Of a stretch of DNA of 64,000 bases, positions 26,349-56,487 are shown one piece after another. The stretch spans positions 1,736,001 through 1,800,000 of the forward strand of contig NZ_CP031223.1 in NCBI RefSeq assembly GCF_008973485.1, in the 5' to 3' direction. Each line of letters starts with the position of its first letter. The first letter of the stretch is position 1. The notes beneath the pieces are model-generated. The model searched no databases. It was given only the letters and a program-made list of their open reading frames with translations, and was not told the origin of the DNA. The DNA is from Psychrobacillus glaciei. Lineage in GTDB: Bacteria > Bacillota > Bacilli > Bacillales_A > Planococcaceae. The translations under genes were made by a program, and so were the position numbers.

Positions 26349-26509
26349 GCCTCTCCTTCAAAAGAAAGAGAGGCACATAAAGTTTCTATTAGTCCTCTCT
26401 TATCTTCCAAAACATAATGTTTTGCTGGATTTAGCACCTTTCTACATAAAAACATGTAGGTGGTTGCCGAGCTTCAACGGGCCAGTCCCTCAGCTACTCT
26501 TGATAAGAG
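26349..26509 (-). ncRNA. SAM (S-box) riboswitch with terminator
   Basis: On the minus strand the P1 arm CTCTTATC (26509-26502) pairs with GATAAGAG (26404-26397). Between them lie the S-box hallmarks AGAGTAGCTGAGGGACTGG, CCCGTTGAAGCTCGGCAACC and GGTGCTAAATCCAGC. Downstream, GCCTCTCC.../...GAGAGGC (26349-26374) with TTTTAT is the terminator, and AGAGAGGA just after P1 can pair with it as antiterminator. High SAM would stop transcription before metQ. Confidence 0.95.
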
Positions 26510-28941: not shown

Positions 28942-30108
28942 TTAAAAGTTGACGTATTTAGCGAATTTTTCAGCAGTATTATCTTTCATTTTTTGAGTGA
29001 CATGTGTATACACATTCATGGTTGTTTTTATATCAGTGTGTCCTAAGCGATCCTGGACATCTTTTATACTTGCTTCAGCTTCAAATAATAATGATGCATG
29101 AGTATGTCTAAAACCATGGACAGTGATTGAAGGGAGGTCATATTTTTTTATTATGCTTTTAAGCTGATAATTTGGATAGATTGTCGAATGAAAATCATTC
29201 ATGGCTCTTTTATCTGTGGATGCTAGTATAGGTTGGTTCTTTTGGAATGTCGTATTAATACCATACATTAATAACAGTTTAGCTTGCGTTTTCTTCCATT
29301 TTTCCAGCACATCAAGGGTATTATCATCCACACTAATTACACGCTTAGAATGTACTGTTTTTGGTGTTTGAACGTTCCTAGTAGAATGTTCCGTTTTAGC
29401 AAGTGTTTTATTGAATCGAATAGTTTTTTCCTTGAAATTAACATCATCCCAAGTTAAAGCTAAAACTTCGCCTTTTCTACCGCCAGTAAAAGCGAGCAAC
29501 CTAAATAATACATAAATTTTCATTTTCTCGTTTTTTTGAATGATGTTTAAAAAATGTTCTAATTGCTGTTTATCGTAATAATTTTCGAGTGGTTCTTCCT
29601 CTTCAACTTTTTGCACTGGCTTAGGCATAATTATTTTAGTCATAGGATTTTCGGTTATGACTTGTAATGTAGTAGCATAGTCCAGCACCATTTTTACATA
29701 GTTTCGATAGCTTCGATAATTTTTGTATTGCTTGGACCATTCATTTACGACCTTTTGACAATGAGAAGTTGTAATTTTATCAATTAAAAGAGATTCGAAC
29801 TTAGGGAGAATAGCAGTCCTAAAATACGTAACTGTAGTATTCACGGTGGAAAGTTTTACGGTGTGTCGATAGTTCTCTAGCCACAATTCATACAACTCTT
29901 TAAATAGCATCTTTTTATGTGTTTTAAAGCCGTTTGCTTCTATATCAACTTCTAGCCTAGCTAATGCAAGTTTCGCTTCTTTGGTGGAGTTAAAACCACG
30001 TCTAGTTGTTCGTTTAGGTTTACCAGTAAGAGGGTCGGTACCAAGATATACGTTAAACATATAGGCGGTAGATCCGTCTTTTTTTGTGTATTTTTTTATA
30101 GTTGTCAT
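28942..30108 (-). CDS. Tyrosine-family integrase
   Basis: 388 aa phage-type integrase. An N-terminal arm-binding domain precedes the SAM-like core-binding domain (about 65-165). The catalytic domain shows Arg in TGGRKGEVLAL, HGFRHTHAS, LGHTDIKTTMNVY and the nucleophile Tyr in YTHV. ATG at 30108 follows AAGGAGAG; the longer frame to 30204 has no such site and reads through GC-rich leader DNA. It drives insertion of the element next to mtnE. Confidence 0.95.
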   Translation of the reverse strand: MTTIKKYTKKDGSTAYMFNVYLGTDPLTGKPKRTTRRGFNSTKEAKLALARLEVDIEANGFKTHKKMLFKELYELWLENYRHTVKLSTVNTTVTYFRTAILPKFESLLIDKITTSHCQKVVNEWSKQYKNYRSYRNYVKMVLDYATTLQVITENPMTKIIMPKPVQKVEEEEPLENYYDKQQLEHFLNIIQKNEKMKIYVLFRLLAFTGGRKGEVLALTWDDVNFKEKTIRFNKTLAKTEHSTRNVQTPKTVHSKRVISVDDNTLDVLEKWKKTQAKLLLMYGINTTFQKNQPILASTDKRAMNDFHSTIYPNYQLKSIIKKYDLPSITVHGFRHTHASLLFEAEASIKDVQDRLGHTDIKTTMNVYTHVTQKMKDNTAEKFAKYVNF

Positions 30109-30130
30109 TATGTTCTCTCCTTGTATGTCC

Positions 30131-30144
30131 GGGCAAGGGCAATT
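30131..30144 (-). promoter_or_regulatory. GGGCAA-GGGCAA tandem motif upstream of integrase
   Basis: GGGCAAGGGCAATT on the plus strand, 23 nt before the integrase start. The same 14-mer stands before the prim-pol gene (31855-31868), and a 13/14 copy stands before a small gene at 47139-47152. Confidence 0.45.
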
Positions 30145-30181
30145 ATAAGGGAGAATAAACGTGTTTTTATTAATTCTATAT

Positions 30182-31189
30182 CTAAGAATTGTTTTCCGAA
30201 TCATTAAAAACGAGTTGTAATATTTGCAGGGCTTTTTGTTTTTCTTTTTCTGTAAGTAAACGATTATTTATTGATATGTTTTTATTAATAAATAAAAGGT
30301 TTTCTATACTAAAAAAATTATTAGATACCTTCTCCCAAATTTGAGAGTCATCATTGCTATGGTCCAAGCTTATTTTTGTTTCGTTATCCATTAGGTAATC
30401 AATGCAAAAAGTCCACTTTTTTTCCTTTCTATCCTCTTTCATTAAGATCCCATTTGAAAATGATTTGACAGTTTTAACAAGCCCTTCTCTTTGCATCTTG
30501 GATACTTGTTGCTTTGAATACCAACTTACTAATTCTCCTACGTTTAAAAGAAATCCAATTTGTTCACTTTTTTCAGTTAGTAAAGGGTAGCCTTGAATTA
30601 AACTATTCTCATTTTTTAAATATTCATCTTTATCAACATCTAAATCGTGGGCCATTTCATCTATTGAAATACCTCTGTGAAGTCTAAGTAATTTTAGATA
30701 GTCACCTATTGATCCAAACGTATAGAAATTTTCAATCAAGAAATCAGTGATTGTATCTTCTTCAAGCGTTTTAATATCACCTATTTTGCTAATTTCCTCA
30801 ATACTTTCTTTTCTTAACTTCACTAAGTCATTACTTCGAGAGATATATTTCCTATCCGAATTACAAATAAAATCCAAAATAAACTCTTTTTTATCATTGA
30901 AAGATAATTGTTTAATCATTGTCGTAATAAAGTTTTCATCTAATCCATTTTCTTTACTCTCTTTTGTCATATATCCAGCCTTGACCATTAATTCAAAAAA
31001 ATCGGCTCTTAAGGATTTAGATAACTTTCCTAACACATCTGCAGAGGGTTTAAAATGTCCATTTTCTATTTGTGAAATATATCCTTTTGAAACACCACTT
31101 TGTTTTACTAATTCATTTATTGATATTCCTTTTTCATTTCTAATTCTTCTTATATAATCACCGATATTTTCAGGCACATTGTTTTTCAT
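30182..31189 (-). CDS. Phage-type repressor with two XRE-like HTH domains
   Basis: 335 aa. A classical XRE helix-turn-helix lies at about 10-65 (IRRIRNEKGISINELVKQSG, then GYISQIENG). A second XRE-like unit lies at about 155-215 (DYLKLLRLHRGISIDEMAHD). The C-terminal part has no protease motif visible, so it is not an obvious LexA-type cleavable repressor. AAGGAGG precedes the ATG. It is divergent from the Cro-like gene across three operator repeats. Confidence 0.85.
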   Translation of the reverse strand: MKNNVPENIGDYIRRIRNEKGISINELVKQSGVSKGYISQIENGHFKPSADVLGKLSKSLRADFFELMVKAGYMTKESKENGLDENFITTMIKQLSFNDKKEFILDFICNSDRKYISRSNDLVKLRKESIEEISKIGDIKTLEEDTITDFLIENFYTFGSIGDYLKLLRLHRGISIDEMAHDLDVDKDEYLKNENSLIQGYPLLTEKSEQIGFLLNVGELVSWYSKQQVSKMQREGLVKTVKSFSNGILMKEDRKEKKWTFCIDYLMDNETKISLDHSNDDSQIWEKVSNNFFSIENLLFINKNISINNRLLTEKEKQKALQILQLVFNDSENNS

Positions 31190-31225
31190 CAAGGGACCTC
31201 CTTTTTTCTTAGATTAAACCATATA

Positions 31226-31913: not shown

Positions 31914-34172
31914 TTGGCCATAATTGTAAAAGAGGAAATACTAGAACCGGTAATGGAAAACATACCAGAAGAGTTGCAAATGATACCAAATTGGGTCTTG
32001 TGGCGTGCTGAATGGAATGAGAAACGTCAGCAATTCGATAAAGTACCATATCAAACAAATGGTATAGATAAAGCGGATTCTACAAGAAATCATACTTGGG
32101 GATCTTTTAAAGATATTGAAGAAGCGTATTTAAATGGAAATGTCGAGGGAATTGGATTTGTGTTATCTGAAGACGATCCATATTGTGTGATTGATATTGA
32201 TGGACTTGAAAATGTGGAAGTACTGCCTGCATTAGCACAAGAAATTACAGATCTATCTTATGCAGAATTAAGTCCAAGTGGTTCCGGCATCCATATTTGG
32301 TTGAAAGGCTTTTATCACGACAAAGAAAAATTCAAAAATAAAAACACCAAATTAGGATATGAGATTTATTCAAATGAAAGATTCATGACTTTTACTGGAG
32401 AAACATTGAATAATCTGCCTATCAGTGAAGGAACTAAAATTAATAGTTTCATAGAAAAAATATTCAAGCGAGAGGAACAAGTTCAATCTTTCATAACTAA
32501 AAGGAATGACAATTTCGGACGAGCAGCATTATCAGAAGAAGAAGTTATTCATATAGCTTGCAATAACCCTAAAACAGGTGAGAGGTTTAAGAGTTTTTTA
32601 CGTGGCGGCTGGGAACAAAATTATAATAGTGATTTTTCAAGTGGGGATTTAGCATTTCTAAATGACTTAGCTTTTTGGACTAATTGTGATTATGGGATGA
32701 TGGATAGCATTTATCGAAAATCAACTCTAATGCGAGAAAAATTTGATAGACCTCAAAATGGCACGACATATGGAAATGAACAAATAATGAAAGCAATTAG
32801 TGAATGTGCTAATACATTTAATCCACCAAAGGGTGAGGATGAAAAAATAAAAGGCCCGTGGTGGAGAACTAATGGTAATGGATCTATTTCATTTCTACAT
32901 CAGGTCTTAGCTAAAGAAGTATTAAAGAAATATCATATTGTTCGTTATCCAAGTCCACATAGCGATTTATATTATTTCAATCCTAAAAAAGGGATATATG
33001 AGCAAGATAAATCGGGACGTCAAATTAACGGTATTATTCGCAAGTTTGATGAAGATTTAAAAAGTGGACAAATAAAAGAGGTTCACAATTATATAACAGA
33101 CTTGTCACCAATTATTAATAAAGTAAATGAAAATTATATTGCATTAAAAAACGGGATTTTGAATTTCACAACCTTTGAAATAGAACCGTTTAATCCAGGA
33201 GTTTTTATTTTACAAAAAGTATCCGTTGAATATAAGCCTAATGCTTATGATTCGTTTGTTGAATCCACTTTAAAAAAGGTAACGAAAGGCCATGCAGCTA
33301 GTATCGAAAACATTAAAGAAATTTTTGCATGTGTTCTGTACCCAGGTGTATTAGTTCCAAAAATTCATTATTTGCTTGGTCGAAGTGCTCATAATGGAAA
33401 ATCATCTATTTTAAATTTGATTCACGAAACATTCAACAAAGATGGAGGAAACATTTCAGCAGTAACACCGCAGAAATTAGCGAGCAGTACATTTGCCGGA
33501 TCTTCTATATATGGCAAGTTAGCAAATATTGTGGACGATAACCCTACATCGTTGATTGAAGATAGCGGACTATTAAAAACCATTGTCACAGGGGGATTTG
33601 CTGAAATCGAGAAAAAGGGGCGTGATTCCGAAACAGTCCGCCTAAGCGCAACATTCATTATTGCTAGTAACCATTTTCCGAATCTTAACGAGAGCGGTAA
33701 TGCGATTAATCGGAGATTGAACATTATACCTTTTGACCATAACTTTTCACTGGATGATGATTGTTTACCGGATGAGGAAAGTATGCGATTAACAAAAAGT
33801 GATTCCGCAAGTGAATATGTTTTGAAACTAGCGATAGATGCACTAAAAAGAATGATGAATAATCCATCATCAGACAAATTAACTGTAAATGATAGAGCAC
33901 AAGAAGCAATAAGTGCATTTGCAGAACACAATGATCCGCTTGCTGACTTCTTTCATGAATTTGATGAACAGTACTTTAATGATGTGCGAGGCGCAAGAGC
34001 TCTAGAAGACTATGAACAATATTGTAGAGAGAATCGCATTCCACCAATGGAAACAAAAAAGTTTAAAGAAGTTGTTAACACTAAATTTAATATGGAATGG
34101 AAAGATAAAACCATAAACGAAAGCGGATTTTGGAAAACGGTGAAGGGTTTTAAGTCGAAAAGTAAAAAATAG
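31914..34172 (+). CDS. Prim-pol / SF3 helicase replication protein (P4/NrS-1 type)
   Basis: 752 aa. The N-terminal archaeo-eukaryotic primase-polymerase domain has the metal motif VIDIDG near residue 98 and SPSGSGIHIW near 122. The C-terminal SF3 helicase has Walker A GRSAHNGKSS, Walker B NIVDD and the arginine-finger region ASNHFPNLNES with NRRLNIIPF. This domain pair is the replication initiator of P4-like satellites, phages such as NrS-1 and many integrative elements. The start is TTG with AAGGAGG 8 nt upstream. Thirteen iterons follow the stop codon directly. Confidence 0.85.
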   Translation: MAIIVKEEILEPVMENIPEELQMIPNWVLWRAEWNEKRQQFDKVPYQTNGIDKADSTRNHTWGSFKDIEEAYLNGNVEGIGFVLSEDDPYCVIDIDGLENVEVLPALAQEITDLSYAELSPSGSGIHIWLKGFYHDKEKFKNKNTKLGYEIYSNERFMTFTGETLNNLPISEGTKINSFIEKIFKREEQVQSFITKRNDNFGRAALSEEEVIHIACNNPKTGERFKSFLRGGWEQNYNSDFSSGDLAFLNDLAFWTNCDYGMMDSIYRKSTLMREKFDRPQNGTTYGNEQIMKAISECANTFNPPKGEDEKIKGPWWRTNGNGSISFLHQVLAKEVLKKYHIVRYPSPHSDLYYFNPKKGIYEQDKSGRQINGIIRKFDEDLKSGQIKEVHNYITDLSPIINKVNENYIALKNGILNFTTFEIEPFNPGVFILQKVSVEYKPNAYDSFVESTLKKVTKGHAASIENIKEIFACVLYPGVLVPKIHYLLGRSAHNGKSSILNLIHETFNKDGGNISAVTPQKLASSTFAGSSIYGKLANIVDDNPTSLIEDSGLLKTIVTGGFAEIEKKGRDSETVRLSATFIIASNHFPNLNESGNAINRRLNIIPFDHNFSLDDDCLPDEESMRLTKSDSASEYVLKLAIDALKRMMNNPSSDKLTVNDRAQEAISAFAEHNDPLADFFHEFDEQYFNDVRGARALEDYEQYCRENRIPPMETKKFKEVVNTKFNMEWKDKTINESGFWKTVKGFKSKSKK

Positions 34173-37172: not shown

Positions 37173-40100
37173 ATGGCAGAACAAGAAGTTGGTAGATTAA
37201 AAGTTAGTCTCTCCATTGATAGTGCAAACTTCGAGAAATCTATTTCCAGTATAGACCGTAACTTAAAAGCAATGGGTCAAGAAATGGCTTCGGCTCGAAA
37301 CAAAGGTAAGGACTGGGGTAGCTCTATTTCCGGTTTAACAACTAAACAAGATACATTATCTCGTATGTTATCAGGACAAGAAACAAAAGTTAGTAGATTA
37401 CGGGATGCATATGAGAAAAGCAAAATCGAAACTGGTGAAAACTCGAAAGCTACTGAAAACTTAGCTATCAAATTAAATAAAGCAGTTGCTGAATATGACA
37501 AGACGGAAACTGAGTTAAAACAAGTAACAGATGCACTTAAAGTTCAACAGGATGAGTTAAAACGCTCTCTAAGTCCATGGCAACAGTTGAGCGATAAAAT
37601 GGATACTTTGGGTTCGAAAATGAAAGATGTTGGAGGAAAAATGAAGGATGTCGGTAAGAACCTTTCATTAAAATTGACAGCCCCATTATTAGCTTTAGGT
37701 ACTGGAGCAGTAAAAGCTGCAGTCGATTTTGAATCCGGAATGGCAGGAGTTCGTAAAACCACGGATTTAACAGACGCAGAATTTGCGACACTTACACAAG
37801 GAATTCGTGATATGGCAAAAGAAATGCCAGCAGCGGCAACTGAAATAGCAGGAATTACAGAACAGGCCGGACAGTTGGGAATTAAGAAAGAAGCGTTGCT
37901 TAGCTTTACTCGTACAATGGCCGACCTGGGAGTTTCGACGAATATGTCGTCTGAACAGGCATCTAATGCGCTTGCTCGTCTTGCTAATATCACAAAAATG
38001 AATCAACAAGACTTTGATAAATTAGGCTCTTCAGTAGTTGCTCTAGGAAATAATTTCGCAACAACAGAAGGTGAAATTGTGGATATGGCATTACGTTTAG
38101 CTGGTGCTGGTTCGCAAATTGGTATGTCCGAAGCAGATATTTTAGGATTATCTGCTGCTTTAAGTTCTGTTGGTATTGAAGCTGAAATGGGTGGTTCCGC
38201 AATGAGCCGTGTAATGGTTCGTATGCAGATTGCCGCAACGACTGGACTAGGAAAAGTGATGGACTTATCCAAGAAGACAGGAATGTCTTTAAGGGATATG
38301 CAGTTGATGGCTGCAAACGATGGTAAAGGTTTTAAAGAATTAGCTGGTTCTTTAAAAATGACGCAAGATGAAATGAAAAGCATCATTAATGCTGGTGTAG
38401 ATTTAGAGAACTTTGCAAAAGTAGCTGGTATGACTGGCGAACAATTTAAGAAAGCGTTCCAAGAAGATGCAGTAGGGGCTATCGCTTCATTTGTCGAAGG
38501 ATTAGGTACTGCAGAAGAAAAAGGCGATTCAGCCATCAACATATTGGAAGAAATGGGTATCAAAGAGGTACGTTTGCGTGATAGTTTATTACGTTCAGGC
38601 GGAGCACATAAATTAGTAGCAGACGCAATAGAGTTGTCGAATAAAGGATGGACTGAAAATGTAGCATTAACAAATGAAGCTGAGCAACGTTATGCAACAA
38701 CAGCCTCTAAAATGACGGTTTTTTTGAACAAAATAAAAGATTTAGGAATTACCATCGGAGATATTTTGATTCCAAAAGTAATTGCATTAATGGATTTTAT
38801 TGCACCATTAATTGAAAAATTCCAAGGGATGTCTACCGCAACACAAAACGTTATTTTAGTCTTTGCTGGAATAGCAGCTGCAATAGGTCCTGTACTCGTA
38901 ATTGTTGGTACATTAATAAGTTCCATTGGCACAATAGTAACCGCATTCGGTACTGTATCAGCGGCCATAGCAGTTGTCACCACAGGAGTAGCAGCGGCTA
39001 CACCAGCTGTTGGCGCTTTAGCAGCAGTCTTCACTGCTTTAACGGGTCCAGTCGGATTAATAATACTAAGCATTGCTGCATTAACAGTGGGTACAGTTGC
39101 ATTAGTTAAACATCTTAGCAAAGATGCATTACCTGCAGTCGATAGATTTGGAGATAGCTTAGAAGGTGTTTCAGATTCGACGAAAGTTGCATTAGAAGGA
39201 TTCTTTGAATTATCTGATGGAGTTAGTCAATCACTATCACAGTTAAGTTTAACATCTTCAAAAGTTACGCAAGAAATGGCTACAGACATGACCACTAAAT
39301 ATAACGAAATGAACAAGCAGATTGTGGATGGCTTAAATACTAGACATGCTCAAGAAATGGATAGTATGAAAAATTTCTTCTTAAATTCGTCCGTTTTAAA
39401 TGATGAAGAAGAAGCGAAGATTTTAGAGAAAAAACAACAGGCTCATGATAAAGAAATTGAGCGTGAAGAATATAACAGAAAACGCATTGGTGAAATACTA
39501 CAACAAGCTGCTGATGATAATAGAGCACTTACTGAGCGAGAACAAAAAGTTGTTGAGAACATTAATAAACATGCTCAAGATCAAGCGGTTAAAATTCTTA
39601 GTGAAAGTGAAATGGAACAGAAAATCATCATGGAACGATTGAAAGAAACTGCTAGCATTGCATCTGCACAACAAGCAGCGGAAGTCGTCAAAAATAGTGC
39701 TAAACAACGTGATAAATCAGTTAAAGAAGTAAATGCTCAATATGATGAAACAGTTGCTAGTATTATTCGTATGCGTGATGAAACTGGAGATATTTCAGCG
39801 GAACAAGCAGACAAATTAATTGCCGAAGCAAAAAAGCAACGTGATGGATCTGTAATGTATGCCGAAAATATGCATCAAGATATTGTATCAGAAGCAAAGA
39901 AACAAGCTGGAGAACACGCTAACGAAGTTGATTGGGAAACAGGCGAGATTCTATCCAAATGGGCAGTATTTAAAGATAAGATGGCAGATACATGGCAACG
40001 AACTAACGAGGCAATTAGCAAAAAAGTTTCTGAGTTGGTAACACTCATATCCACTAAATTTACGGAATTTCACAAGAAAATTTTCGACAAAATGGCAGAA

Positions 40101-40526
40101 ACGGAAGCGGATATTAAATCTAGATGGAACGTCATTATTGAGTTTTTTAAAGCGATTGACCTCAAGCAAATCGGCAAAGACATTATCCTTGGATTAATTA
40201 ATGGTATCGGATCTAAGTTTACGGCAGTTGGAGAAGCAATAAAAGGAATAGCTGATAATATCAAGGATACATTTACAAAGCTATTTGATATCCATTCACC
40301 TTCTCGCGTAATGGAAAAACTCGGCGGACATGTCGGTCAAGGTTTAAAGAAAGGGATAGATGGAACAAAAGACGATATTTTAGAAAGCATGAAAAATATC
40401 GCTGATGGAATTATGTCCATGGCGTCGCCAAGGATCAAAAGTAGTGAAAAGACCAAGGTGGCGGCAATGATACTGAAGGGAATTCTAAATAGGCCAAAAC
40501 ACGATAGGAGGTTAGTATTTTTATAA
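37173..40526 (+). CDS. Phage tail tape-measure protein (TP901 type)
   Basis: 1117 aa. An N-terminal coiled coil (LKVSLSIDSANFEKSISSID, about 1-130) precedes the TP901 core, with FESGMAGVRKTTDLTDAEF near residue 187 and GGSAMSRVMVRM near 340. Hydrophobic helices lie at about 555-650, then a Gln/Glu-rich coil. The usual closing motif FDIHSPSRVMEKLGGHVGQG is near 1037. The final ~30 residues (after SMASP) are unlike the family and may come from a recombination joint. It sets tail length in siphophages. No other tail, head or packaging gene is near, which is highly unusual. The stop overlaps the next start (TAATG). Confidence 0.9.
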   Translation: MAEQEVGRLKVSLSIDSANFEKSISSIDRNLKAMGQEMASARNKGKDWGSSISGLTTKQDTLSRMLSGQETKVSRLRDAYEKSKIETGENSKATENLAIKLNKAVAEYDKTETELKQVTDALKVQQDELKRSLSPWQQLSDKMDTLGSKMKDVGGKMKDVGKNLSLKLTAPLLALGTGAVKAAVDFESGMAGVRKTTDLTDAEFATLTQGIRDMAKEMPAAATEIAGITEQAGQLGIKKEALLSFTRTMADLGVSTNMSSEQASNALARLANITKMNQQDFDKLGSSVVALGNNFATTEGEIVDMALRLAGAGSQIGMSEADILGLSAALSSVGIEAEMGGSAMSRVMVRMQIAATTGLGKVMDLSKKTGMSLRDMQLMAANDGKGFKELAGSLKMTQDEMKSIINAGVDLENFAKVAGMTGEQFKKAFQEDAVGAIASFVEGLGTAEEKGDSAINILEEMGIKEVRLRDSLLRSGGAHKLVADAIELSNKGWTENVALTNEAEQRYATTASKMTVFLNKIKDLGITIGDILIPKVIALMDFIAPLIEKFQGMSTATQNVILVFAGIAAAIGPVLVIVGTLISSIGTIVTAFGTVSAAIAVVTTGVAAATPAVGALAAVFTALTGPVGLIILSIAALTVGTVALVKHLSKDALPAVDRFGDSLEGVSDSTKVALEGFFELSDGVSQSLSQLSLTSSKVTQEMATDMTTKYNEMNKQIVDGLNTRHAQEMDSMKNFFLNSSVLNDEEEAKILEKKQQAHDKEIEREEYNRKRIGEILQQAADDNRALTEREQKVVENINKHAQDQAVKILSESEMEQKIIMERLKETASIASAQQAAEVVKNSAKQRDKSVKEVNAQYDETVASIIRMRDETGDISAEQADKLIAEAKKQRDGSVMYAENMHQDIVSEAKKQAGEHANEVDWETGEILSKWAVFKDKMADTWQRTNEAISKKVSELVTLISTKFTEFHKKIFDKMAETEADIKSRWNVIIEFFKAIDLKQIGKDIILGLINGIGSKFTAVGEAIKGIADNIKDTFTKLFDIHSPSRVMEKLGGHVGQGLKKGIDGTKDDILESMKNIADGIMSMASPRIKSSEKTKVAAMILKGILNRPKHDRRLVFL

Positions 40527-43404: not shown

Positions 43405-44007
43405 CTATTTGATTTCATTGATTGTGTATACTTTTGTTAGCGGTAACTCTCTACAAGCTTCTTGTAGTTGATTTCGCCTTAATTCAGATGTAGTGAGCCA
43501 CACAATCGTTGGAAAATGTTCTAATTTTTGTGCTAACAATTCATTATCATGCAATTCTTTATATCTTGCTATTTTCGTACGATTCTCTGACATTGGTTGA
43601 GTATGGTCCACCTCTAAAAAGTGATAACGAAGACTTTTAGTGAATAAAGCATCGCAAATAATAGTTGCTTTGCCATCTGATACTTTCACCTCGTTTCGCC
43701 AGTCGTGAGGGCATCCGTAAAATAGATAGAATTCATTCCGCATAATCGTATGCTCAACGTGAGAGCCCTTTTTACGTATCTTGGTACATTCAACATAAGC
43801 TCTACCGGTTGCGTTTAAATAGTAAATAAATTGATGTCCGTCGCGTACATACGTGAGGTAATCCGATAATGCGCTGATAACTCGATTCGTATTGCGTTTG
43901 GATCCTAGTCGGAAATAACGGTTAAGCTGATTGCGAGTCATGAAATCAAATTTCTTCAATAATAATAGTATCGATTCCTCTCGGTTGTTCAACTTCCGCT
44001 TGTTCAA
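43405..44007 (-). CDS. Replication-relaxation family protein
   Basis: 200 aa. An N-terminal winged helix (KFDFMTRNQLNRYFRLGSKR) is followed by a restriction-fold-like domain with CDALFTK, FLEVDHTQPM and KIARYKEL, the D-ExD-K pattern of the replication-relaxation family found in plasmids and integrative elements. The TTG start lies 62 bp inside the ftsK-like gene; a shorter start would remove the winged helix. Confidence 0.7.
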   Translation of the reverse strand: MNKRKLNNREESILLLLKKFDFMTRNQLNRYFRLGSKRNTNRVISALSDYLTYVRDGHQFIYYLNATGRAYVECTKIRKKGSHVEHTIMRNEFYLFYGCPHDWRNEVKVSDGKATIICDALFTKSLRYHFLEVDHTQPMSENRTKIARYKELHDNELLAQKLEHFPTIVWLTTSELRRNQLQEACRELPLTKVYTINEIK

Positions 44008-45256
44008 GTACGATAACCTCCTTTTCGACTTTTTCTACGACGTAAGGTGCTAATGTCTTTTGAATTATTTCAGATGTAATTAATGGGGTTTGAAGGATTT
44101 CTCGTTTATCTGCAGTTTGATAGATGGCTCTACCTTTAATTTGTGGAAGTAATTCAGCACCAGTTTCATCTAAAACAACCTTAGATGCAGTTGCAGATTG
44201 AACTCTGAATGATAATTTAGCGTCACTATTTTGTTTGCATTGTCTAGGGATCACATCGCCAGTAGGATATTGAGTGGCCAAGATTTGACGAAAGCCTAAA
44301 CCTCTACCCAACCTACTTATTTGACTCATTAACTTCTGGCATTCTTCTTTTAACTTCCTATCCGGAGTTCCTACAGCTTCAGCAGGGTTCAACTCGCCAA
44401 CCTCATCAATTATTACGAAGTAACGCTCTTTAATACCGGCTTCCTGGACGTTCTTCTTTCCAAGGAATCTAAGACGGTTCTGTATCGTTCGCATTTGGTC
44501 GTATGCTGCTTGTAATGTCGTTAGAGCTTCTTCCGGTTCATACGCAATACTTACTGTCTGCTTAATAGATTCGTAGTCGCATAACTCCACACCGCCTTTT
44601 AAATCGATTAAATAGAAGCTCACGTAATCAGGTTGACTCTGTAGCAAACTTGTAATCATCGAATTTATAAACGTAGATTTCCCATATCCTGATGATCCTC
44701 CGGTAACGAGGTGCGGTATTTTTTCGAAATCATGGTATCTGAATGTGTTTTTATCGCGTGTAACACCCACAGGGACGCTCCAATTAACACCAGGCTCAAA
44801 CGGTACTTGTAACGGTAAAGGCTCGTTATAGACACGTATTTTCAGTAATCCATCGAATATTATTTCGATTTCTTTACGCTCCGTAAGTTTGTTAGTCCAT
44901 AGCGTTTTAAGGTTGTCAATGATATTTTCATCGAGTTGCAACGACTTTAAATCTGCAATGCTGATACGTTGACGACGATTGTTTAATCCGTCCTCTAATA
45001 CACGTTGTTTCGCTAAATAGTCGTCATAACTGCGCCCTAGCGGTATTCGATAGGCGTATTCCATGCCCCATTCATATGATTTCTTGCGGATTAGCTGCGT
45101 CGTAAGCGTTTCTTTGCCATCTTTTACGTTTAATCCGGATAGCGATATGATTCGCTGTATTTTTCCGCTATCATTCGTGGCTAAACCTTTCTTTTTCACG
45201 AATGCTTTTAATGCAATTCCACCCATAAAAGTTGTTGTTAAAATTTCAAATATCAT
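43946..45256 (-). CDS. FtsK/SpoIIIE-type DNA translocase (conjugation/plasmid type)
   Basis: 436 aa. Walker A GGSSGYGKST near residue 190, LIDLKGGVE near 220, Walker B FVIIDEVGEL near 277, and the Q/R-rich motif SRLGRGLGFRQILATQ near 315. It lacks the long membrane and gamma domains of the cell-division FtsK. It resembles the coupling or Tcp/YdcQ-type ATPases of Gram-positive integrative elements. It probably pumps element DNA. ATG overlaps the stop of the 61-codon gene before it. Confidence 0.8.
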   Translation of the reverse strand: MIFEILTTTFMGGIALKAFVKKKGLATNDSGKIQRIISLSGLNVKDGKETLTTQLIRKKSYEWGMEYAYRIPLGRSYDDYLAKQRVLEDGLNNRRQRISIADLKSLQLDENIIDNLKTLWTNKLTERKEIEIIFDGLLKIRVYNEPLPLQVPFEPGVNWSVPVGVTRDKNTFRYHDFEKIPHLVTGGSSGYGKSTFINSMITSLLQSQPDYVSFYLIDLKGGVELCDYESIKQTVSIAYEPEEALTTLQAAYDQMRTIQNRLRFLGKKNVQEAGIKERYFVIIDEVGELNPAEAVGTPDRKLKEECQKLMSQISRLGRGLGFRQILATQYPTGDVIPRQCKQNSDAKLSFRVQSATASKVVLDETGAELLPQIKGRAIYQTADKREILQTPLITSEIIQKTLAPYVVEKVEKEVIVLEQAEVEQPRGIDTIIIEEI

Positions 45257-46964: not shown

Positions 46965-47117
46965 TTATTGACTACCTTCCTCATCGTTTTCTGCTTTTTG
47001 TTTTTCAAGTCGTTCTTCTTCTAATATCCTCGGAAGTGAATGCTTTACAAAAAAATCGAACATTGCTTGTTTTGTTTCTTGTGAAATGTTAGGTGGTTTA
47101 ACAATACTATTTTTCAT
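46965..47117 (-). CDS. Small phage-type hypothetical protein
   Basis: 50 aa: MKNSIVKPPNISQETKQ, then FFVKHSLPRILEE, an acidic tail. AAGGAG precedes the ATG at 47117; the longer frame upstream has no ribosome site and runs over the GGGCAA motif. Unknown function. Confidence 0.55.
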   Translation of the reverse strand: MKNSIVKPPNISQETKQAMFDFFVKHSLPRILEEERLEKQKAENDEEGSQ

Positions 47118-47138
47118 AATAATACTCCTTTGAACCTC

Positions 47139-47152
47139 AATTACCCTTGCCC
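47139..47152 (-). promoter_or_regulatory. GGGCAA-GGGTAA tandem motif, third copy
   Basis: On the minus strand GGGCAAGGGTAATT, 13 of 14 identical to the copies at 30131 and 31855, again just before a ribosome site and start codon. Confidence 0.4.
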
Positions 47153-47317
47153 TATTTTTGAATCCCAAAAGCTTAGTATTCATTGAATTACATTTTTTAT
47201 ACTTCAATTATGAAACTTGACTTAACGATGTTTTATTAATAGTTGATGTGTATTTTTTTATATGTTGCAAAAACAAACATTCGTTCGTATAATGGAATAA
47301 AAGAGGAGAGAACAAGT

Positions 47318-47539
47318 GTGCGTATAAATATTTTGAAGTATTTGTATCGTGGGCAATTAGCCGATATGATTTACATGAAAAATAGAGGCGAAATGACGAA
47401 AAGAAGAGTGAAAATAGTAAGTGTGGAAGATACTACATTCAAGGTTTATTGCTTTTTAAGAAATACAAAAAGGACTTTTAAAATAGAGAATATACTCGCA
47501 TTTGTTCCTATCGCAAATCATGAAAGGGATGTTATCTGA
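47318..47539 (+). CDS. Small WYL-like protein upstream of YolD
   Basis: 73 aa from GTG with GAGGAG upstream. KRRVKIVSVEDTTFKVYCFL and RTFKIENILAFVPI resemble the WYL fold that recurs beside YolD genes. Its last base is shared with the YolD start. Confidence 0.5.
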   Translation: MRINILKYLYRGQLADMIYMKNRGEMTKRRVKIVSVEDTTFKVYCFLRNTKRTFKIENILAFVPIANHERDVI

Positions 47540-47910
47540 TGGCTTACTTCGATGAAATGATGGATACTCCAGATTTATCAAAATTACGTGATAGAGGCTC
47601 AAAGAAATGGGTAGCAATGATGTTACCAGAACACTTGAAACTAGTCCGTGAATACATCGCAGACCAAAAGAAATCACCACGTCCTGAACTGGACGAATGG
47701 GATATAGACATCATTCAAGAAAACATTCAAATTTCTATGCAACGTAATGTAGAAGTTGAAATAAAAACTTGGAAAGATGGAGCTTTTACTTATAGTGTTG
47801 GAAAATTAACATGGGTAGATTTAAAAAATAGAGTCATCGAAGTCGAAGACGTATTCAAATCATTTGTGATTCGATTAGACGAAATAGTTGACGTAACAGT
47901 ATTAGAATAA
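47539..47910 (+). CDS. YolD-like protein, copy 1
   Basis: 123 aa. Family block RDRGSKKWVAMMLPEHLKLV near 19-40, then PELDEWDIDIIQE and the closing IRLDEIVDV. YolD-like proteins usually accompany UvrX/DinB-type Y-family polymerases in plasmids and prophages; here no polymerase is left next to this copy. A second YolD gene is at 57602. Confidence 0.8.
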   Translation: MAYFDEMMDTPDLSKLRDRGSKKWVAMMLPEHLKLVREYIADQKKSPRPELDEWDIDIIQENIQISMQRNVEVEIKTWKDGAFTYSVGKLTWVDLKNRVIEVEDVFKSFVIRLDEIVDVTVLE

Positions 47911-47929
47911 AGCATAGAGGTGTATTAAT

Positions 47930-48103
47930 GTGGAGGATAAGGAACAAATATTGAGGGAATCAGTAGATAATTTGTTTAAAGTGTTACCTCGAGAAAAAGT
48001 ATTGAATCTGATTCACCAGATCATTGAGATGCCAGAAGAGGACTTAGAAGAGTTGATAGAGTATGGACGAATACTAGATGAAAGAGAAACCACTAACCAG
48101 TAA
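47930..48103 (+). CDS. Small acidic hypothetical protein
   Basis: 57 aa from GTG; GAGGTG 8 nt upstream. Helical and acidic (PEEDLEELIEYG). It lies 19 bp after the YolD-like gene and upstream of the Abi unit. Confidence 0.5.
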   Translation: MEDKEQILRESVDNLFKVLPREKVLNLIHQIIEMPEEDLEELIEYGRILDERETTNQ

Positions 48104-48172
48104 TAATTCCTAAGGTGCTTTTCATTTATTTCAAATACAGTTAGTATTCGTTTACATAAATAAACTAATATA

Positions 48173-48201
48173 TTGACGTGTAAATAAAATCCATGTATTA
48201 T
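48173..48201 (+). promoter_or_regulatory. Promoter of the short RNA upstream of the Abi gene
   Basis: TTGACG at 48173-48178, a 17-bp spacer and TATTAT at 48196-48201. The first downstream start codon is 120 bp away and a terminator lies between. Confidence 0.7.
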
Positions 48202-48207
48202 GAATAC

Positions 48208-48269
48208 AATATAGTATGCAGGCCATCGATTGGCTAGGAAAAACCTCTAACTTGTTTAGGGGTTTTTTT
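48208..48269 (+). ncRNA. Putative antitoxin-like small RNA of the Abi unit
   Basis: About 62 nt between the promoter at 48173-48201 and the T-run ending at 48269. It holds a short stem-loop, GCCA-TCGAT-TGGC, and a terminator hairpin ACCTCTAA/TTAGGGGT extended by A-T pairs and closed by T7. No start codon with a ribosome site lies in it. Abi_2-family (AbiF) loci have been reported to carry an upstream structured RNA that neutralises the toxin; this position and build fit that pattern. Confidence 0.6.
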
Positions 48270-48321
48270 CTGCCCGCTTCTAGAGTATCATATAGATATT
48301 GCGAGTGAATCGGGGTGCGAA

Positions 48322-49314
48322 ATGAGTGGAATGGGAAAACCATTTTTATCATTGGAAAAACAAATAGAAAAACTTTCTTCGCGTGGTTTGGAAATTAAAT
48401 CAGTTAGTGATGCCAAACAACAACTATTAAGAACTACCTATTATGATTTAATTAATGGATATAAAGATGTATTTTTAGTAGAGAAAATAGATCCAGAAGA
48501 AGAGGATCAGTATATTAGAGGTACAACTTTTGAAGATATTCTTGATCTATATAATCTAGATAGAGAGATAAGACATGTAACATTAGAGGTTTTACTAGAC
48601 ATTGAGTGTACTTTCTACTCAAGCTTGGCTTATTGCTTGTCAGAAATATATGGGGAAAAACAGGAAGACTATTTAAAGAAAGAAAATTTTAGACTTGGAC
48701 GAAAGCAGAGACATAACAATCGTTTTGAACGAGATAACCTACTTTGGAAAATTGGAAAGAAAATTAATGAACCTGATGAACAACCACTTAAATACTATAA
48801 AGAACAGTACGGAAATATACCACCATGGATATTGGTTAAAGGATTATCATTCGGTGAATTGGTGATGCTATACAAGTTATCATCTGATGTAGTTAAATCA
48901 AATGTTATTATGAATATAATTGGCAGGGAAGCCTCGGATCATGACAAAGAATTTTTCCTGAAAAGTATGGAAATATTTAATAGATATAGAAATCTTGCCG
49001 CCCATGGTGGTCGTATTTATAATAATTGGACAAACTTTGAACTTCCTTACAAGCCGGAACTGTTTAGGATCCTAGGCATTGAAAAGGCTGCGCACAATAA
49101 AGGAAAGGGAAGAAATGATTACGCTGCATTTACAATTGGTCTCTTATTTTTCTTTCAAAATAATCATAGAGGGATGCTTGAATTCATTATATATTTAGAA
49201 GGTTCGATGAGTGAATATCAGAAAAAGCAGCCATCTCATTACGAGTGGACCTTAGCTTCATTAGGTATCCCTAGTAATTACCATCGCTCATTTTTAGATC
49301 ATATTGGATTATAA
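48322..49314 (+). CDS. Abi_2 (AbiF/AbiD-type) abortive-infection HEPN protein
   Basis: 330 aa. It opens KPFLSLEKQIEKLSSRGLEI and has YNLDREIRHVTLEVLLDIE near 85, both typical of Abi_2. The HEPN motif R-N-x3-H is in RYRNLAAHGGRIYN near residue 220. HEPN Abi proteins are RNA-cleaving effectors that stop growth of phage-infected cells. The weak site GGGGTG precedes the ATG. A short terminated RNA unit lies just upstream, and a terminator follows. Confidence 0.85.
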   Translation: MSGMGKPFLSLEKQIEKLSSRGLEIKSVSDAKQQLLRTTYYDLINGYKDVFLVEKIDPEEEDQYIRGTTFEDILDLYNLDREIRHVTLEVLLDIECTFYSSLAYCLSEIYGEKQEDYLKKENFRLGRKQRHNNRFERDNLLWKIGKKINEPDEQPLKYYKEQYGNIPPWILVKGLSFGELVMLYKLSSDVVKSNVIMNIIGREASDHDKEFFLKSMEIFNRYRNLAAHGGRIYNNWTNFELPYKPELFRILGIEKAAHNKGKGRNDYAAFTIGLLFFFQNNHRGMLEFIIYLEGSMSEYQKKQPSHYEWTLASLGIPSNYHRSFLDHIGL

Positions 49315-49340
49315 GCATTGGTATTATTTTCACATGAAAT

Positions 49341-49365
49341 GAAGAGCTTAGGCTCTTCTTTTTTT
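49341..49365 (+). terminator. Terminator of the Abi gene
   Basis: GAAGAGC and GCTCTTC around CTTAGG form the stem (49341-49357), followed by T7. Confidence 0.8.
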
Positions 49366-49442
49366 GTATGAATAACTGGAGTGTTACCTGAATGTTACAG
49401 CTCAATTTTGAGCCGTCAAACTATACCACTGCTAGAGTTAGT

Positions 49443-49464
49443 TGGTGTTAAAATGGTGTTAAAA
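49443..49464. repeat. Perfect tandem 11-mer (TGGTGTTAAAA x2)
   Basis: TGGTGTTAAAA at 49443-49453 and 49454-49464, with inverted TAAACAC-type motifs near 49492 and 49506. Like the tandem 11-mer beside the integrase, it could be a recombinase arm site, marking an old element end. Confidence 0.4.
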
Positions 49465-49590
49465 ATGATATAAAACCGTAATAAACACTATAAAATCATA
49501 TCAATAAACACCGTCAAAACAGTTATTTATAAAGTTTTTTATGCTTTTTCCACCACATTTGAGGAGTGGTGGTTCATCAAAACTAGAAAT

Positions 49591-50001
49591 GTGATTGGTT
49601 TTACACAAAGTATAACTCCATTCACCCAAGAAGGTCGAGCACAAATAACCACACGGTTGAGTAAAGACATAAGACATGAAATAGTATTGTTAATGGAATC
49701 AAAAATACCGACACGAAGTGTCGAATATATGGATAATCGGATCAGTAGATACAGTATGAAGAAAGGGAAATGTGAAATTACTGGCATGTTCCTAACGGCA
49801 CAAAACGTGTACTGCCACCATTATATATCTAAGCATCTTGGTGGAAGCGACAAATTCAATAATTTACGTATCCTCCAAAAAGAGGTACATGAGTTAATCC
49901 ATATAACCGACAAAATTAAGGCGAATACTCTCATAAGAATTTTGGGTATTACTGAATCGATGTTAGAAAAACAAAAATGTGAGCTAGAAATAATCAAATA
50001 A
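49591..50001 (+). pseudogene. Group II intron maturase, C-terminal HNH remnant
   Basis: 136 codons corresponding to the end of an intron-encoded reverse transcriptase. The X/thumb-type lead-in ends in KKGKCEITGMFL, then VYCHHYISKHLGGSDKFNNL and VHELIHIT, the HNH endonuclease of bacterial group II maturases. The reverse-transcriptase domains are absent, so this is a 5'-truncated intron copy. Confidence 0.7.
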
Positions 50002-50160
50002 CCCAAATCAACATGAGTAACTTGAAACTTATAATGACTAAAACCATCGCTAGATGGAACGTGGAATAATGGGAAACTATCACGATCCGTGCGGAGTAGG
50101 GGAAAAGCTGGAGATAACTTCAAACGCTTACCTATTACTAACTTTAGTTTAATAAGTATA
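50002..50160 (+). ncRNA. 3' end of a truncated group II intron
   Basis: The DNA behind the maturase tail is rich in short stems and contains GGAACGTGGAATAATGGGAA and GGGGAAAAGCTGGAGATAAC. I read it as leftover intron RNA sequence because it directly follows the maturase end. Domain V and the exact 3' splice border could not be fixed. Confidence 0.4.
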
Positions 50161-50293
50161 ATTAAAGTCAACAGTGATCAGTTGGCTTTTTCTGACGCAT
50201 CCGGAACATTATGCGTCGTAAAAAAATTAAAAACTTAGAAGGATTCCCGTCCTATTTTGTCGAATAAAATTTAATGGGAGAGGATGAGATGAG

Positions 50294-50797
50294 TTGGAAA
50301 ATTTAACTTCGAACATCATAGCTGCTGTTGGGGTTTTAGTTACAGGAACTTTTAGTTACTTTGTATGGAAAGCAACTAATGCAACAGCTCAAGTTGCAAA
50401 CGCAACATTTGAATTAAGTAAAGAATTAGCTCAAAAGGAAGATAATAGAAGAGAAGAATATAAAAGAATAATGAGAAGACAATTACTATCTGTTATTTCA
50501 AAAGAATCAAAAATCGTATATGATGCGGTTGTGGATATTGACCCAATGAATATTCTTATGAAGCTAAGAGATGCTCCTGTATATTTGAGTATCAATAAAA
50601 CAGAATTAGCGGAATATTTTAGTGTCGATGAAGTTGCTACAATAATTAAAGCATGGGAAACATATGAAAGCTATAGGACGAAATATTACAAAGAGACATA
50701 TAGAGGTAATGAGTTAAAACTTTTGTTAGAGAAAAATCAACCTGTTATCATTCATTTCGAGGAATTAAAAGACAAGTTAAACAATATTGAAATTTGA
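50294..50797 (+). CDS. Membrane-anchored hypothetical protein
   Basis: 167 aa. One N-terminal helix (IIAAVGVLVTGTFSYFVW) is followed by a coiled-coil and a soluble helical part. TTG start with AGGATGAG upstream. Similar small proteins occur before holin genes in Bacillus prophages; the function is unknown. Confidence 0.55.
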   Translation: MENLTSNIIAAVGVLVTGTFSYFVWKATNATAQVANATFELSKELAQKEDNRREEYKRIMRRQLLSVISKESKIVYDAVVDIDPMNILMKLRDAPVYLSINKTELAEYFSVDEVATIIKAWETYESYRTKYYKETYRGNELKLLLEKNQPVIIHFEELKDKLNNIEI

Positions 50798-51534: not shown

Positions 51535-51956
51535 ATGATGGATTTTATAGAACGTATTTTGATTTTAACTGGTTCAGCAACGTTTCATATTTTTTAGGCG
51601 GTTGGACAATTTTGTTGTCTACCCTAATAATTTTAAATGGATTTGATTTCGTAATCGGCATTACTGCAAATTGGAAAGAGCGATCATCGTTGAAAGCGTT
51701 CCGGGGGGGAATAAAAAAAGGTATCATGTGGATGTGGATTGGTATTGCTAATTTAGTCTATTTACTTCTATCTGAATTAGGATATGAAGCTAGTGAGGTC
51801 TTACCTAATCTAGCAGCTCTATATTATATAATCATGGAAATTATATCGTTAGAAGAAAACTCGAAGAAGCTTGGTATGAATATGCCGGCACCTTTGGTTT
51901 TTTTTATTCAAAAATTAAAGGATATTTTCAATTCTAAAACTGGAGGCGAACAATAG
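51535..51956 (+). pseudogene. Phage holin (Holin_4/TcdE type), frameshifted
   Basis: The start MMDFIERILILTGSATFHIF hits TAG at about 51596. The rest (LGGWTILLSTLIILNGFDFV, WKERSSLKAFRGGIKKG) follows in another frame to 51956. Adding one T to the T6 tract at 51590-51595 restores a full holin of about 140 residues. The family opens the membrane for the endolysin. Loss, phase variation at the T tract, or a sequence error are all possible. Confidence 0.65.
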
Positions 51957-52697
51957 TGGCTAACTTTATCAAACCATGCGAGGGAAGAGTCACGAGTCCT
52001 TTTGGATATCGCATTCATCCAATAACGAGTTTAAAAACTATGCACTGGTGTGGATTGGGGTAACACTCCATCGAACAATAATATTATTGCTTCGGCAGAT
52101 GGTGCGGTCACTTATGTAGGGATAATGGGCGGATACGGAAATATTGTGATGATCGTCCACACTGTTGCAGGAGTGGTATATGAGACTGTCTACGCACATT
52201 TAGCATCCATTGCAGTAAAAGTTGGACAAGTTGTAAAACAAGTAGAAAAGATTGGTGTTAAAGGTACAACTGGAAATTCCACTGGCGTACATCTTCACTT
52301 CGAAATTCATATAGGTGGACGTAGAAATAGCGACTATACGTTTGCAAAGGACCCAGTTCGATATGTATGTGATCCTGAGGTTAAAACTCTACAGGAATTA
52401 TTAAATAAAATAGACTACAAATTAGTTGTGGATGGAATAGAAGGCAATGCAACAACTAATGCAGTTAAAGAGTTTCAAAAGGTTAATTGCTTAACTGTGG
52501 ACGGTATAGCCGGAAGTGCAACCTTATCAGCATTAAATAAAGCTATTGCATTAAAAAAGGAGGAAGTTAAAGTGCCATCTACAAGCGAGAAGTATCGACT
52601 TCAGACTGGGACTTTTAATAGCAAAGTGGAAGCTGAAAAAGCTGCAGAAGAATTAAAGGGAAAATACGGATGGATTATTTACATTAAAGAAGCATAA
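51956..52697 (+). pseudogene. M23 endopeptidase endolysin, frameshifted
   Basis: From GTG 51956 (GGAGG upstream) the frame reads CEGRVTSPFGYRIHPITS, MHW and then stops. The continuation VDWGNTPSNN, GVHLHFEIHIGG lies in another frame. The zinc motifs H-x3-D and HLHFEIH are both present, followed by a peptidoglycan-binding domain (VKTLQELLNKIDYKLVVDG) and a SPOR-like end. A short indel at about 52050 breaks it. Confidence 0.7.
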
Positions 52698-54693: not shown

Positions 54694-56487
54694 ATGACGT
54701 ATTGTTTTGCATGGAAGGCTGATGATGAAATTTACATTGTTGCAGATTCATTAACTTCTTCTGAAAATAATGATTTAGAAGTTGAAGCTGATTATTCAAG
54801 TATGGGGGAAAAGTATGGAGAATATAATTCACGCTTTGTTGCAGAAACGGATATAAAAATTTATATAAAAGATAATTATGTTATTGCATTTTCAGGTTAT
54901 TTGGATACCTATGAGGAAATAAAAAGTAAATTAAATTTAATGGTTGGATTGCCAGATGATCAAATCATTTCTTATCTTATGGAAATTGTATCAGATGGAG
55001 AATTGATACTTGCAATTCATCAGAAAGATAATAATAAATTATTTGTATTAAATAAAAGAGAAGTTAAAGAAATAACTAATTATATAAGTATAGGAAGTGG
55101 TAGAGCAATAGGAATGTTAGATGATCTAATGAAGAGGTTTTCAAAAACATTCCCAGACTTTAAAGATGAAACTATAGACGATAAGCCTAGGAAAAAAATA
55201 AGTGCTGCTACTGCATATCTTCAAATGATATCTTTGAAAAATAATTTTTTAGAACATGGAGTAGGTGGGACTATATGTGGTGTCTGCATTTATGATAATA
55301 AAATAGAGTGGAATGATGATTTACTTTATTTTTTTTATGATGAAAATTTTAAGAATAAAAAGCTCATAAACATGATTATTAGAAATAATAATATTTTGAC
55401 CGGTTCAGATTTTACTGGATTAACTAAGCTATTTAGATTTCCAGAAGTAGATGACAAATTGGATGAAGTAAGTATGAGGAAACTTGTTCGTTCTATGCAT
55501 AAAAATATGTCCTCACATATACCAAGATATATTGTATTTTATAGTACCGATTTAAATAATATTTATTTTTATGACACACATAGAAAAACACAAACTAGCT
55601 TAGTAAGAATGTTTCAACGCAGAAGTAGTGGGAAAATTAAGTGGGAAATATTCACTATACCATTTTTAATATCTAACTTTTTATTGCAAAACAACAATAA
55701 AGAAGAATTGGCGCCCCCTTTTCATTATTTAGAGGGACTTCCAGTTCCGTATGAATCGAGAGATTATTTAATAGAAAACACAGAAAACATTGAGGATATA
55801 GAATTTGAATATGATTATTTCGATCAACCGTTAGAAAATATTCAAATTAATATTGATATAGAAAAGTACTTTAAATTTGGATTAGAAGACTATGAAAATT
55901 TAATTATTGTTAATTTCGAATATCTGGAAGAAAAAATTATTGAATTAAGAAATTTTTATAAAGGACTAAATATTCAATTTGATAGCTCTAAAATATTAAA
56001 AAAACTTTGTGAATTTTTGAAGAAGGAATGGGGTGTAGATAAATTTGAAATTCTAGTATTTAGCAAGAATTATCAATTCTTCTACGAAAAAATAGATGAT
56101 TTAGAATTAAATTTAATAAAAAACAAGAATGAATACTCAGGTTTTTTAATTAAATTATTACATAATTACTATGTAGATCATAGATATTTTCATTTGAATA
56201 AAATTTTCATAATTGACGATAGTTCAGATTTCAATGATTTATTCGAAATTTTGCCTGATTATAATAAAAATAGAGAAGAAGCAGATATTTTTATTATAAA
56301 AAATCAAAACGGTGAGTCAGAAGTATTGTATTCCCCATATCATTATAATGCTGATATATTATTTTCACAGTTATCGGGACTAAGTTATGAAGCTCTAGGA
56401 TTGTGGAGTCCACTAGAGTATTCCGAAGATGAACTCGAGGGAATAAGGAAATATATAAATGAACAAATAGATAACTCGAAAATATAG
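54694..56487 (+). CDS. Large protein with proteasome-like Ntn-hydrolase domain
   Basis: 597 aa. After Met, Thr begins T-YCFAWKADDEIYIVADSL, giving a Thr1...Asp17 spacing identical to proteasome beta/HslV. Lys in TDIKIYIKDNYVIAFSGYLD fits the Lys33 strand and glycine turn. The Ntn-like domain covers about 1-220; the rest (about 380 residues) is acidic, without recognised domain, and includes YLEEKIIELRNFYKG. The codon use is very AT-rich compared with the host part. A TniQ/TnsD remnant follows 12 bp later. A defence or regulatory protease is possible; nothing proves it. Confidence 0.6.
   Translation: MTYCFAWKADDEIYIVADSLTSSENNDLEVEADYSSMGEKYGEYNSRFVAETDIKIYIKDNYVIAFSGYLDTYEEIKSKLNLMVGLPDDQIISYLMEIVSDGELILAIHQKDNNKLFVLNKREVKEITNYISIGSGRAIGMLDDLMKRFSKTFPDFKDETIDDKPRKKISAATAYLQMISLKNNFLEHGVGGTICGVCIYDNKIEWNDDLLYFFYDENFKNKKLINMIIRNNNILTGSDFTGLTKLFRFPEVDDKLDEVSMRKLVRSMHKNMSSHIPRYIVFYSTDLNNIYFYDTHRKTQTSLVRMFQRRSSGKIKWEIFTIPFLISNFLLQNNNKEELAPPFHYLEGLPVPYESRDYLIENTENIEDIEFEYDYFDQPLENIQINIDIEKYFKFGLEDYENLIIVNFEYLEEKIIELRNFYKGLNIQFDSSKILKKLCEFLKKEWGVDKFEILVFSKNYQFFYEKIDDLELNLIKNKNEYSGFLIKLLHNYYVDHRYFHLNKIFIIDDSSDFNDLFEILPDYNKNREEADIFIIKNQNGESEVLYSPYHYNADILFSQLSGLSYEALGLWSPLEYSEDELEGIRKYINEQIDNSKI

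Follow-up and report, generated by a model that had tools for sequence, protein, structure and literature searches.

A 64,000-nucleotide stretch of DNA (the window) carries a 62-nt structured RNA, ending in a terminator, between a promoter and a gene of the AbiF/AbiD (Abi_2) HEPN ribonuclease family, and this RNA is conserved upstream of related genes. By analogy with characterised systems, this is most likely a prophage-borne AbiF toxin-antitoxin unit of a type III-like kind, in which the 62-nt RNA would serve as the antitoxin. The parts stand in the same order as in the AbiFCd and AbiD1 units, which makes a type III-like antitoxin the best-supported reading. That an AbiF protein can have an RNA antitoxin is already known. 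What is new, as far as we have seen, is a repeat-free RNA whose first hairpin immediately precedes the terminator, which belongs with one AbiF branch and which Rfam 15 does not match.

The gene unit and its prophage setting

The unit lies between a YolD gene (47539-47910) and the Abi_2 gene (48322-49314, plus strand). Its surroundings are of the prophage type, with genes for an integrase (28942-30204), an HTH protein (30182-31192), an NrS-1-polymerase-like protein (31914-34172), a tail tape measure protein (37173-40526), a holin (51612-51956) and an M23 endolysin (52050-52697). The genes for FtsK/SpoIIIE-like and replication-relaxation proteins (43405-45256, minus strand) have the opposite orientation within this prophage-like region. 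A 597-aa protein (54694-56487) is unmatched in Pfam and NCBIfam and in PHROGs resembles only an HslV-like peptidase family, weakly and over residues 11-139, and a SAM riboswitch occupies 26397-26509 on the minus strand. The genome holds a second Abi_2 gene (locus L002, contig C2, 19 kb), distant from that of the window; no terminator RNA was visible by eye in the stretch inspected upstream of it.

The 330-aa product of the abi gene, the candidate toxin, belongs to the Pfam domain family Abi_2 (PF07751; E 2.5e-36, 126.2 bits against a curated cut-off of 25.6), is called AbiD by PADLOC (8.8e-45) and falls in the PHROG abortive-infection family (4e-64); NCBIfam gave no match. The HEPN catalytic motif R-N-x3-H, which a sequence-only reading of this DNA had noted in the gene, is present as R223-N-L-A-A-H228 (codons at 48988-49005), and R223, N224 and H228 are unchanged in all 20 aligned sequences. 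The AlphaFold prediction, made for the monomer only, has the fold of PbAbiF (PDB 8vz6); the Cas13d chains come next after PbAbiF among its matches, a model-based result that bears out the kinship between AbiF and Cas13 named by the same reading. A terminator scan placed a terminator 3' of the gene (49341-49365, plus strand).

Upstream of the gene, positions 48208-48269 (plus strand, the start being deduced from the promoter) fold into a hairpin P1 (48221-48235), a single-stranded linker (A48236) and a hairpin P2 (48237-48269), at -20.0 kcal/mol (z -3.6), which two of 200 shuffled sequences equal. The sequence-only reading had described an RNA of about 62 nt with a small stem and a strong terminator, and both elements are located here. 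In P1, 48221-48225 (GGCCA) pairs with 48231-48235 (TGGCT) around a loop at 48226-48230; the GGCTAGGAAAAACC that surrounds the linker is identical in the window and in loci L004 and L033. P2 is an A/U-closed intrinsic terminator of 14 bp (48237-48250 with 48256-48269, loop 48251-48255) with seven T. It is the most stable part of the leader RNA, and P1 with the leader alone folds weakly (z -1.3). A simple terminator scanner overlooked P2, probably because the T-run pairs inside the stem, and an inverted-repeat search recovered it. The RNA is followed by a little-conserved 52-nt spacer (48270-48321) with a weak ribosome site, GGGGTG (48312-48317), picked out by eye.

The RNA had also been said to contain no ORF, which is nearly right. 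A 30-codon frame does run through it from an ATG at 48216-48218, without a visible ribosome site, but L004 and L109 lack such a frame and that of L033 stops after six codons, so that a conserved coding role was dropped. An outer stem joining the 5' leader to the stretch that follows the terminator, GCAG with CTGC in the window, was judged by eye and likewise dropped, being absent in L109 and L033. The window RNA has no tandem or direct repeats and is therefore not a type III antitoxin of the classical sort (ToxIN, AbiQ, CptIN, TenpIN). Nor does it match RF03085, the covariance model of which found nothing in the window at its gathering score or at E up to 10. We refer to the P1-linker-P2 architecture as class A.

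A sigma-A-type promoter (48173-48201, plus strand) precedes the RNA, with TTGACG at 48173-48178, a gap of 17 nt and TATTAT at 48196-48201, just as the sequence-only reading had it. Taken alone it is at chance level: there are 16 promoter-like sites at 47000-50500 against 16.3 expected, and 9% of local shuffles are equally good. Its position, however, is conserved. In 29 of the 30 class A loci a distance of 12-21 nt (19 in the window) separates the end of the best promoter's −10 box from P1, and in 25 of the 30 at least 10 of the 12 promoter bases are matched. Such a conserved spacing makes it likely, as far as sequence can tell, that the RNA of class A loci is started separately, with a leader of some 5-14 nt. 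The idea that the AbiF/AbiD-family gene has a promoter-RNA-terminator unit of its own is supported.

Conservation of the leader RNA

It is the relatives, and not the window promoter or P1 by themselves, that set this RNA apart from chance. In the protein tree the window groups (SH-aLRT 98) with seven loci, all of class A, from genome G086, Listeria phage HB17054, Lentibacillus populi, Geomicrobium, Oceanobacillus oncorhynchi, Listeria booriae and Bacillus sp. JCM 19034. The viral contig L087, with a gene truncated after 177 residues, is an eighth relative, one that the tree did not include. From P1 to the T-run the window is 69-90% identical to each of the eight, against 46-47% for shuffled sequences; the corresponding values are 52-59% against 53-55% for the 100 nt upstream of the RNA and 42-60% against 41-49% for the spacer. 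The leader RNA is preserved while its flanks drift. As A-tract terminators resemble one another, P1 and the linker were tested apart from P2, and in six of the eight relatives they are nearer to the window (0.76-0.89) than all 417 control sites (best 0.71). In L112 (0.62) and L087 (0.65) they are equalled or beaten by 37 and 18 of the 417 controls, respectively, and these two retain the P1 stem through paired changes from C-G to U-A.

Two of the five P1 pairs are changed on both sides among the eight relatives, and the 12 modelled pairs of P2 are preserved in all of them. With the window left out, 98.5% of their pair cells are standard and nine are double changes against a shuffled mean of 2.4 (none of 500 shuffles as high), and 19 AbiF loci, mostly more distant, have 63 against 16.3 (again 0 of 500). 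The rows behind both counts are related to one another and were hand-picked and hand-padded around the predicted hairpins of the individual sequences, a procedure biased towards pairing. The loops and linkers were padded by hand because the MAFFT alignment of the RNA ignores stems. Of the 49 terminators that lie upstream of abiF, 32 have P1 before them, against 60 of 419 terminators elsewhere in the same loci (Fisher 8.6e-14), and by a stricter definition 22 of 49 against 26 of 419 (9.2e-12), as counted in 116 nonredundant loci, some related and so not independent, by one algorithm written after the motif had been seen. Five genome loci of the window clade (L109-L113) provided a prospective check, having been fetched after the motif and a first covariance model, R1, existed: the RNA is present in all five, with an R1 match at the right place in each. 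The automatic structural test for RNA classes described below was written after these loci had been fetched. Identity, covariation, P1 enrichment and the separate comparison of P1 plus linker all bear out the expectation that the RNA would be conserved in sequence and structure upstream of related Abi_2 genes.

The sequence-only reading had proposed a covariance search upstream of other Abi_2 genes; the structure was indeed found conserved, but the models themselves are poor detectors. R1, built from 19 loci (window, L004 and L033 excluded, L087 included), ranked the window RNA first in the 64 kb at only 15.1 bits (E 0.35), a score inside the noise of its off-target matches, which went up to 19.1 bits when 53 loci were scanned and to 26.3 bits when ten new ones were. 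In the window's own genome R1 reported two other places and not the window site, and in the ten new loci it matched at the right place in six and missed L114, L117, L118 and L121 at E up to 2. The second model, R2 (eight loci, window left out), found 48211-48272 at 32.8 bits, with an unrelated runner-up in the window at 20.4 bits, and its nominal E of 4.1e-7 overstates the case. The window site also came first in its own genome, where the next match had 26.2 bits. Across 261 genomes G086 alone stands apart among the matches listed (56.8 bits, at its AbiF leader), and at least 18 further rows exceed 32.8 bits, none of them where the genome in question has an Abi_2 match. R2 matched in 106 of the 261 and in 128 of 398 genomes when E up to 0.1 was allowed, mostly at sites resembling ordinary terminators. 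Given these off-target scores, both models are in keeping with the site but are no means of discovering new ones, and the E-values they give are not to be relied on.

In the 398 genomes the pattern GGCY-N4-10-GGCTAGRRAAAAMCY matched the window and one site within an ORF of G386; its reverse gave 14 matches by hand count. The 16-mer GGCTAGGAAAAACCTC had six matches in IMG/VR, four at AbiF loci (two different genes) and two inside unrelated ORFs. A search of genome and viral contigs with the single window protein as query returned no relatives, and alignment-based scans found them. Class A RNAs are found in various Bacillota, Listeria, Streptococcus and Latilactobacillus among them, on chromosomes and plasmids and in phages and satellite phages. 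One locus, L006 (genome G014), has an AbiF gene and leader identical to those of L116. In L035 and related Listeria plasmid records a 209-codon AbiF gene ends at an IS30 transposase gene, and its leader RNA does not differ from the one before the full-length gene of L034. The lactococcal locus L241 is uninformative, since an IS element lies directly upstream.

RNA classes and protein branches

The automatic structural test assigned the 116 nonredundant loci to class A (30), class B (37), both (3) or neither (46). In class B the terminator hairpin itself is bulged on its 5' side, for example CUCCGG-UGU-CC-UACG-GG-CCGGGG-U. It comprises an outer stem, a 5' bulge of 2-3 nt, a CC-loop-GG cap and a T-run, and by eye GATC or GAAC often stands before it. 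It is found upstream of Abi_2 in L007, L019, L031, L119, L124, L126 and L129, and further in L133, L145, L146, L164, L167, L168 and others. None of the class B loci scanned matched RF03085 at its gathering score.

The tree of 114 proteins is split (SH-aLRT 98) into 44 and 70 rows. On the smaller side 28 rows are of class A, two of both, one of class B and 13 of neither; on the larger side 36 are of class B, one of both, one of class A and 32 of neither. Counting A and B rows only, the class changes five times on this tree and twice on the tree to which PbAbiF was added, the latter against a shuffled mean of 22 (minimum 15) for 66 rows. At least six of the 13 rows with neither class on the A side (L006, L080, L090, L094, L101, L102) fold into the two hairpins and fail the strict test. 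The RNA class tracks the protein branch, which suggests that the protein recognises the RNA.

PbAbiF (a fragment), the AbiF of phiC2 (L043) and L067 form a small branch of three rows (SH-aLRT 99), and in the 114-protein tree L043 and L067 are on the class B side; this placing is provisional, the branches being long and the tree a quick one. Among 40 locus scans L043 alone matched RF03085 at gathering (37.6 bits against 37). In genus g13 (G079-G124; loci L008-L032), 45 of 46 genomes have an Abi_2 gene about 30% identical to that of the window, and the automatic test assigned 11 of 13 nonredundant representatives to neither class. Many of them have in common an upstream block resembling GGTTTATTA...TTACAGTAAAAGAAAG, and this AbiF may be a domesticated, vertically kept one.

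Mechanism, rival readings and known systems

If the unit works as AbiFCd, PbAbiF and AbiD1 suggest, the promoter at 48173-48201 would drive a short, abundant RNA consisting of P1, the linker and terminator P2. The majority of transcripts would end at P2, and a minority would read through to give AbiF mRNA. The 62-nt RNA would bind an AbiF HEPN dimer and block its RNase. When transcription or the RNA supply drops, for instance upon infection by another phage (a trigger that we only infer), AbiF would outlive its RNA, and the freed protein would cut RNA and stop growth. The sequence-only reading had pointed to relatives with a neutralising upstream RNA, and precedents exist in AbiFCd and in the leader transcript of AbiD1. 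AbiFCd has an RNA antitoxin, RCd22, in a unit consisting of a SigA promoter, a short RNA, a terminator and read-through; the protein is described as toxic and as neutralised by RCd22 both in cis and in trans, and RCd22 binds it directly and requires its stems (PMC12373285).

Alternatively, the leader could be an attenuator only, in which P2 would keep AbiF expression down, P1 would adjust termination or respond to a phage factor, and the released short RNA would not act as an antitoxin. For AbiD1, a 50-nt transcript ends at a terminator just upstream of the gene, read-through is low and activation is described as occurring at translation, through the phage protein Orf1 and low temperature (PMC2661086). 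The stability of P2 within the leader also fits such a device. However, P1 and the linker are conserved and covary, though a terminator requires neither, RNA class and protein branch go together as if the protein recognised the RNA, and the comparable RNA of AbiFCd acts in trans and binds its protein (PMC12373285); we consider pure attenuation unlikely. The sequence-only reading had also offered a guide-like cofactor, a relative of crRNA that would direct AbiF to targets. This idea draws on the proposed descent of Cas13 from AbiF-like HEPN proteins (PMC12165695, PMC12737573) and on the rank of the Cas13d chains in the predicted-fold search. However, a CRISPR guide has a variable spacer beside a constant structured part; across the compared loci nothing varies but short loops and paired positions, which disfavours a guide role. 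As RCd22 neutralises AbiFCd (PMC12373285) and a review terms the PbAbiF RNA an antitoxin (PMC12737573), a guide is highly improbable. An ordinary terminator with a chance hairpin, or the terminator of the upstream gene, is hardly credible: P2 alone does resemble many terminators and P1 occurs by the same test at 60 of 419 controls, but the conservation of the RNA against its flanks and of P1 itself, the enrichment of P1, the covariation, and a promoter sitting at conserved spacing between the upstream ORF and the RNA all speak against it.

Returning to the antitoxin reading, the RNA-protein pairs known from structure or genetics are, in the sources covered, those of PbAbiF and AbiFCd only, and our tree places both (AbiFCd by way of phiC2 AbiF) on a single small branch. 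With its compact 62 nt, its different architecture and its link to another AbiF branch, the window RNA offers a minimal system for RNA recognition by HEPN RNases, and AbiF-RNA pairs are the proposed ancestors of Cas13. Class A RNA is also a test case for a terminator doubling as an antitoxin, and classes A and B are seeds for RNA classes missed by Rfam 15 in the loci scanned. The covariance models 'AbiF5_iter3' and 'diverse_rna', mentioned in a Nature paper (PMC12804078), may include class A RNA. The literature searched, which did not extend to Zilberzwige-Tal et al., contained no description of the class A architecture. We tentatively propose, with somewhat less than even confidence, that class A is a separate, repeat-free type of antitoxin of which the terminator hairpin is one half; that P1-linker-P2, besides setting the toxin/antitoxin ratio through termination, is what the HEPN dimer binds; and that AbiF branches evolved mutually exclusive RNA partners (class A, the bulged terminator of class B, RF03085), so forming a natural series of orthogonal RNA-HEPN pairs that led towards Cas13.

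Compared with known systems, the unit resembles ToxIN/AbiQ in its logic, with a candidate RNA antitoxin, a terminator and a candidate toxin RNase gene; their antitoxin is a tandem-repeat RNA, unlike the window RNA, and their toxin has a fold unrelated to AbiF. Rfam RF03085, the abiF RNA, is likewise a small RNA upstream of abiF genes, but at gathering its model is without a match in the other class A loci scanned too. PbAbiF with its ncRNA (8vz6), reportedly described by Zilberzwige-Tal et al., groups, in a comparison by protein alone, with phiC2 AbiF and L067 and not with the window branch. Lactococcal AbiD1 (pIL105) shares a promoter, a terminated short transcript and an abi gene reached by read-through, with transcript and read-through predicted for the window and the leaders likened by description, and differs in that the control reported in PMC2661086 is translational. 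Finally, the AbiFCd/RCd22 pair of the phi027 prophage of C. difficile (Clostridioides difficile), as portrayed in PMC12373285, shares an Abi_2 HEPN protein with R-N-x3-H, encoded in a prophage close to the lysis genes, and the same succession of sigma-A promoter, short structured RNA, terminator and abi gene, with read-through expression that we assume for the window by analogy. RCd22 is about 88-132 nt long, and two RF03085 motifs precede its terminator hairpin, whereas the window RNA has 62 nt, one hairpin directly before the terminator, no repeat and no RF03085 match, and phiC2 AbiF, 99.88% identical to AbiFCd (PMC12373285), stands on a different branch from the window protein.
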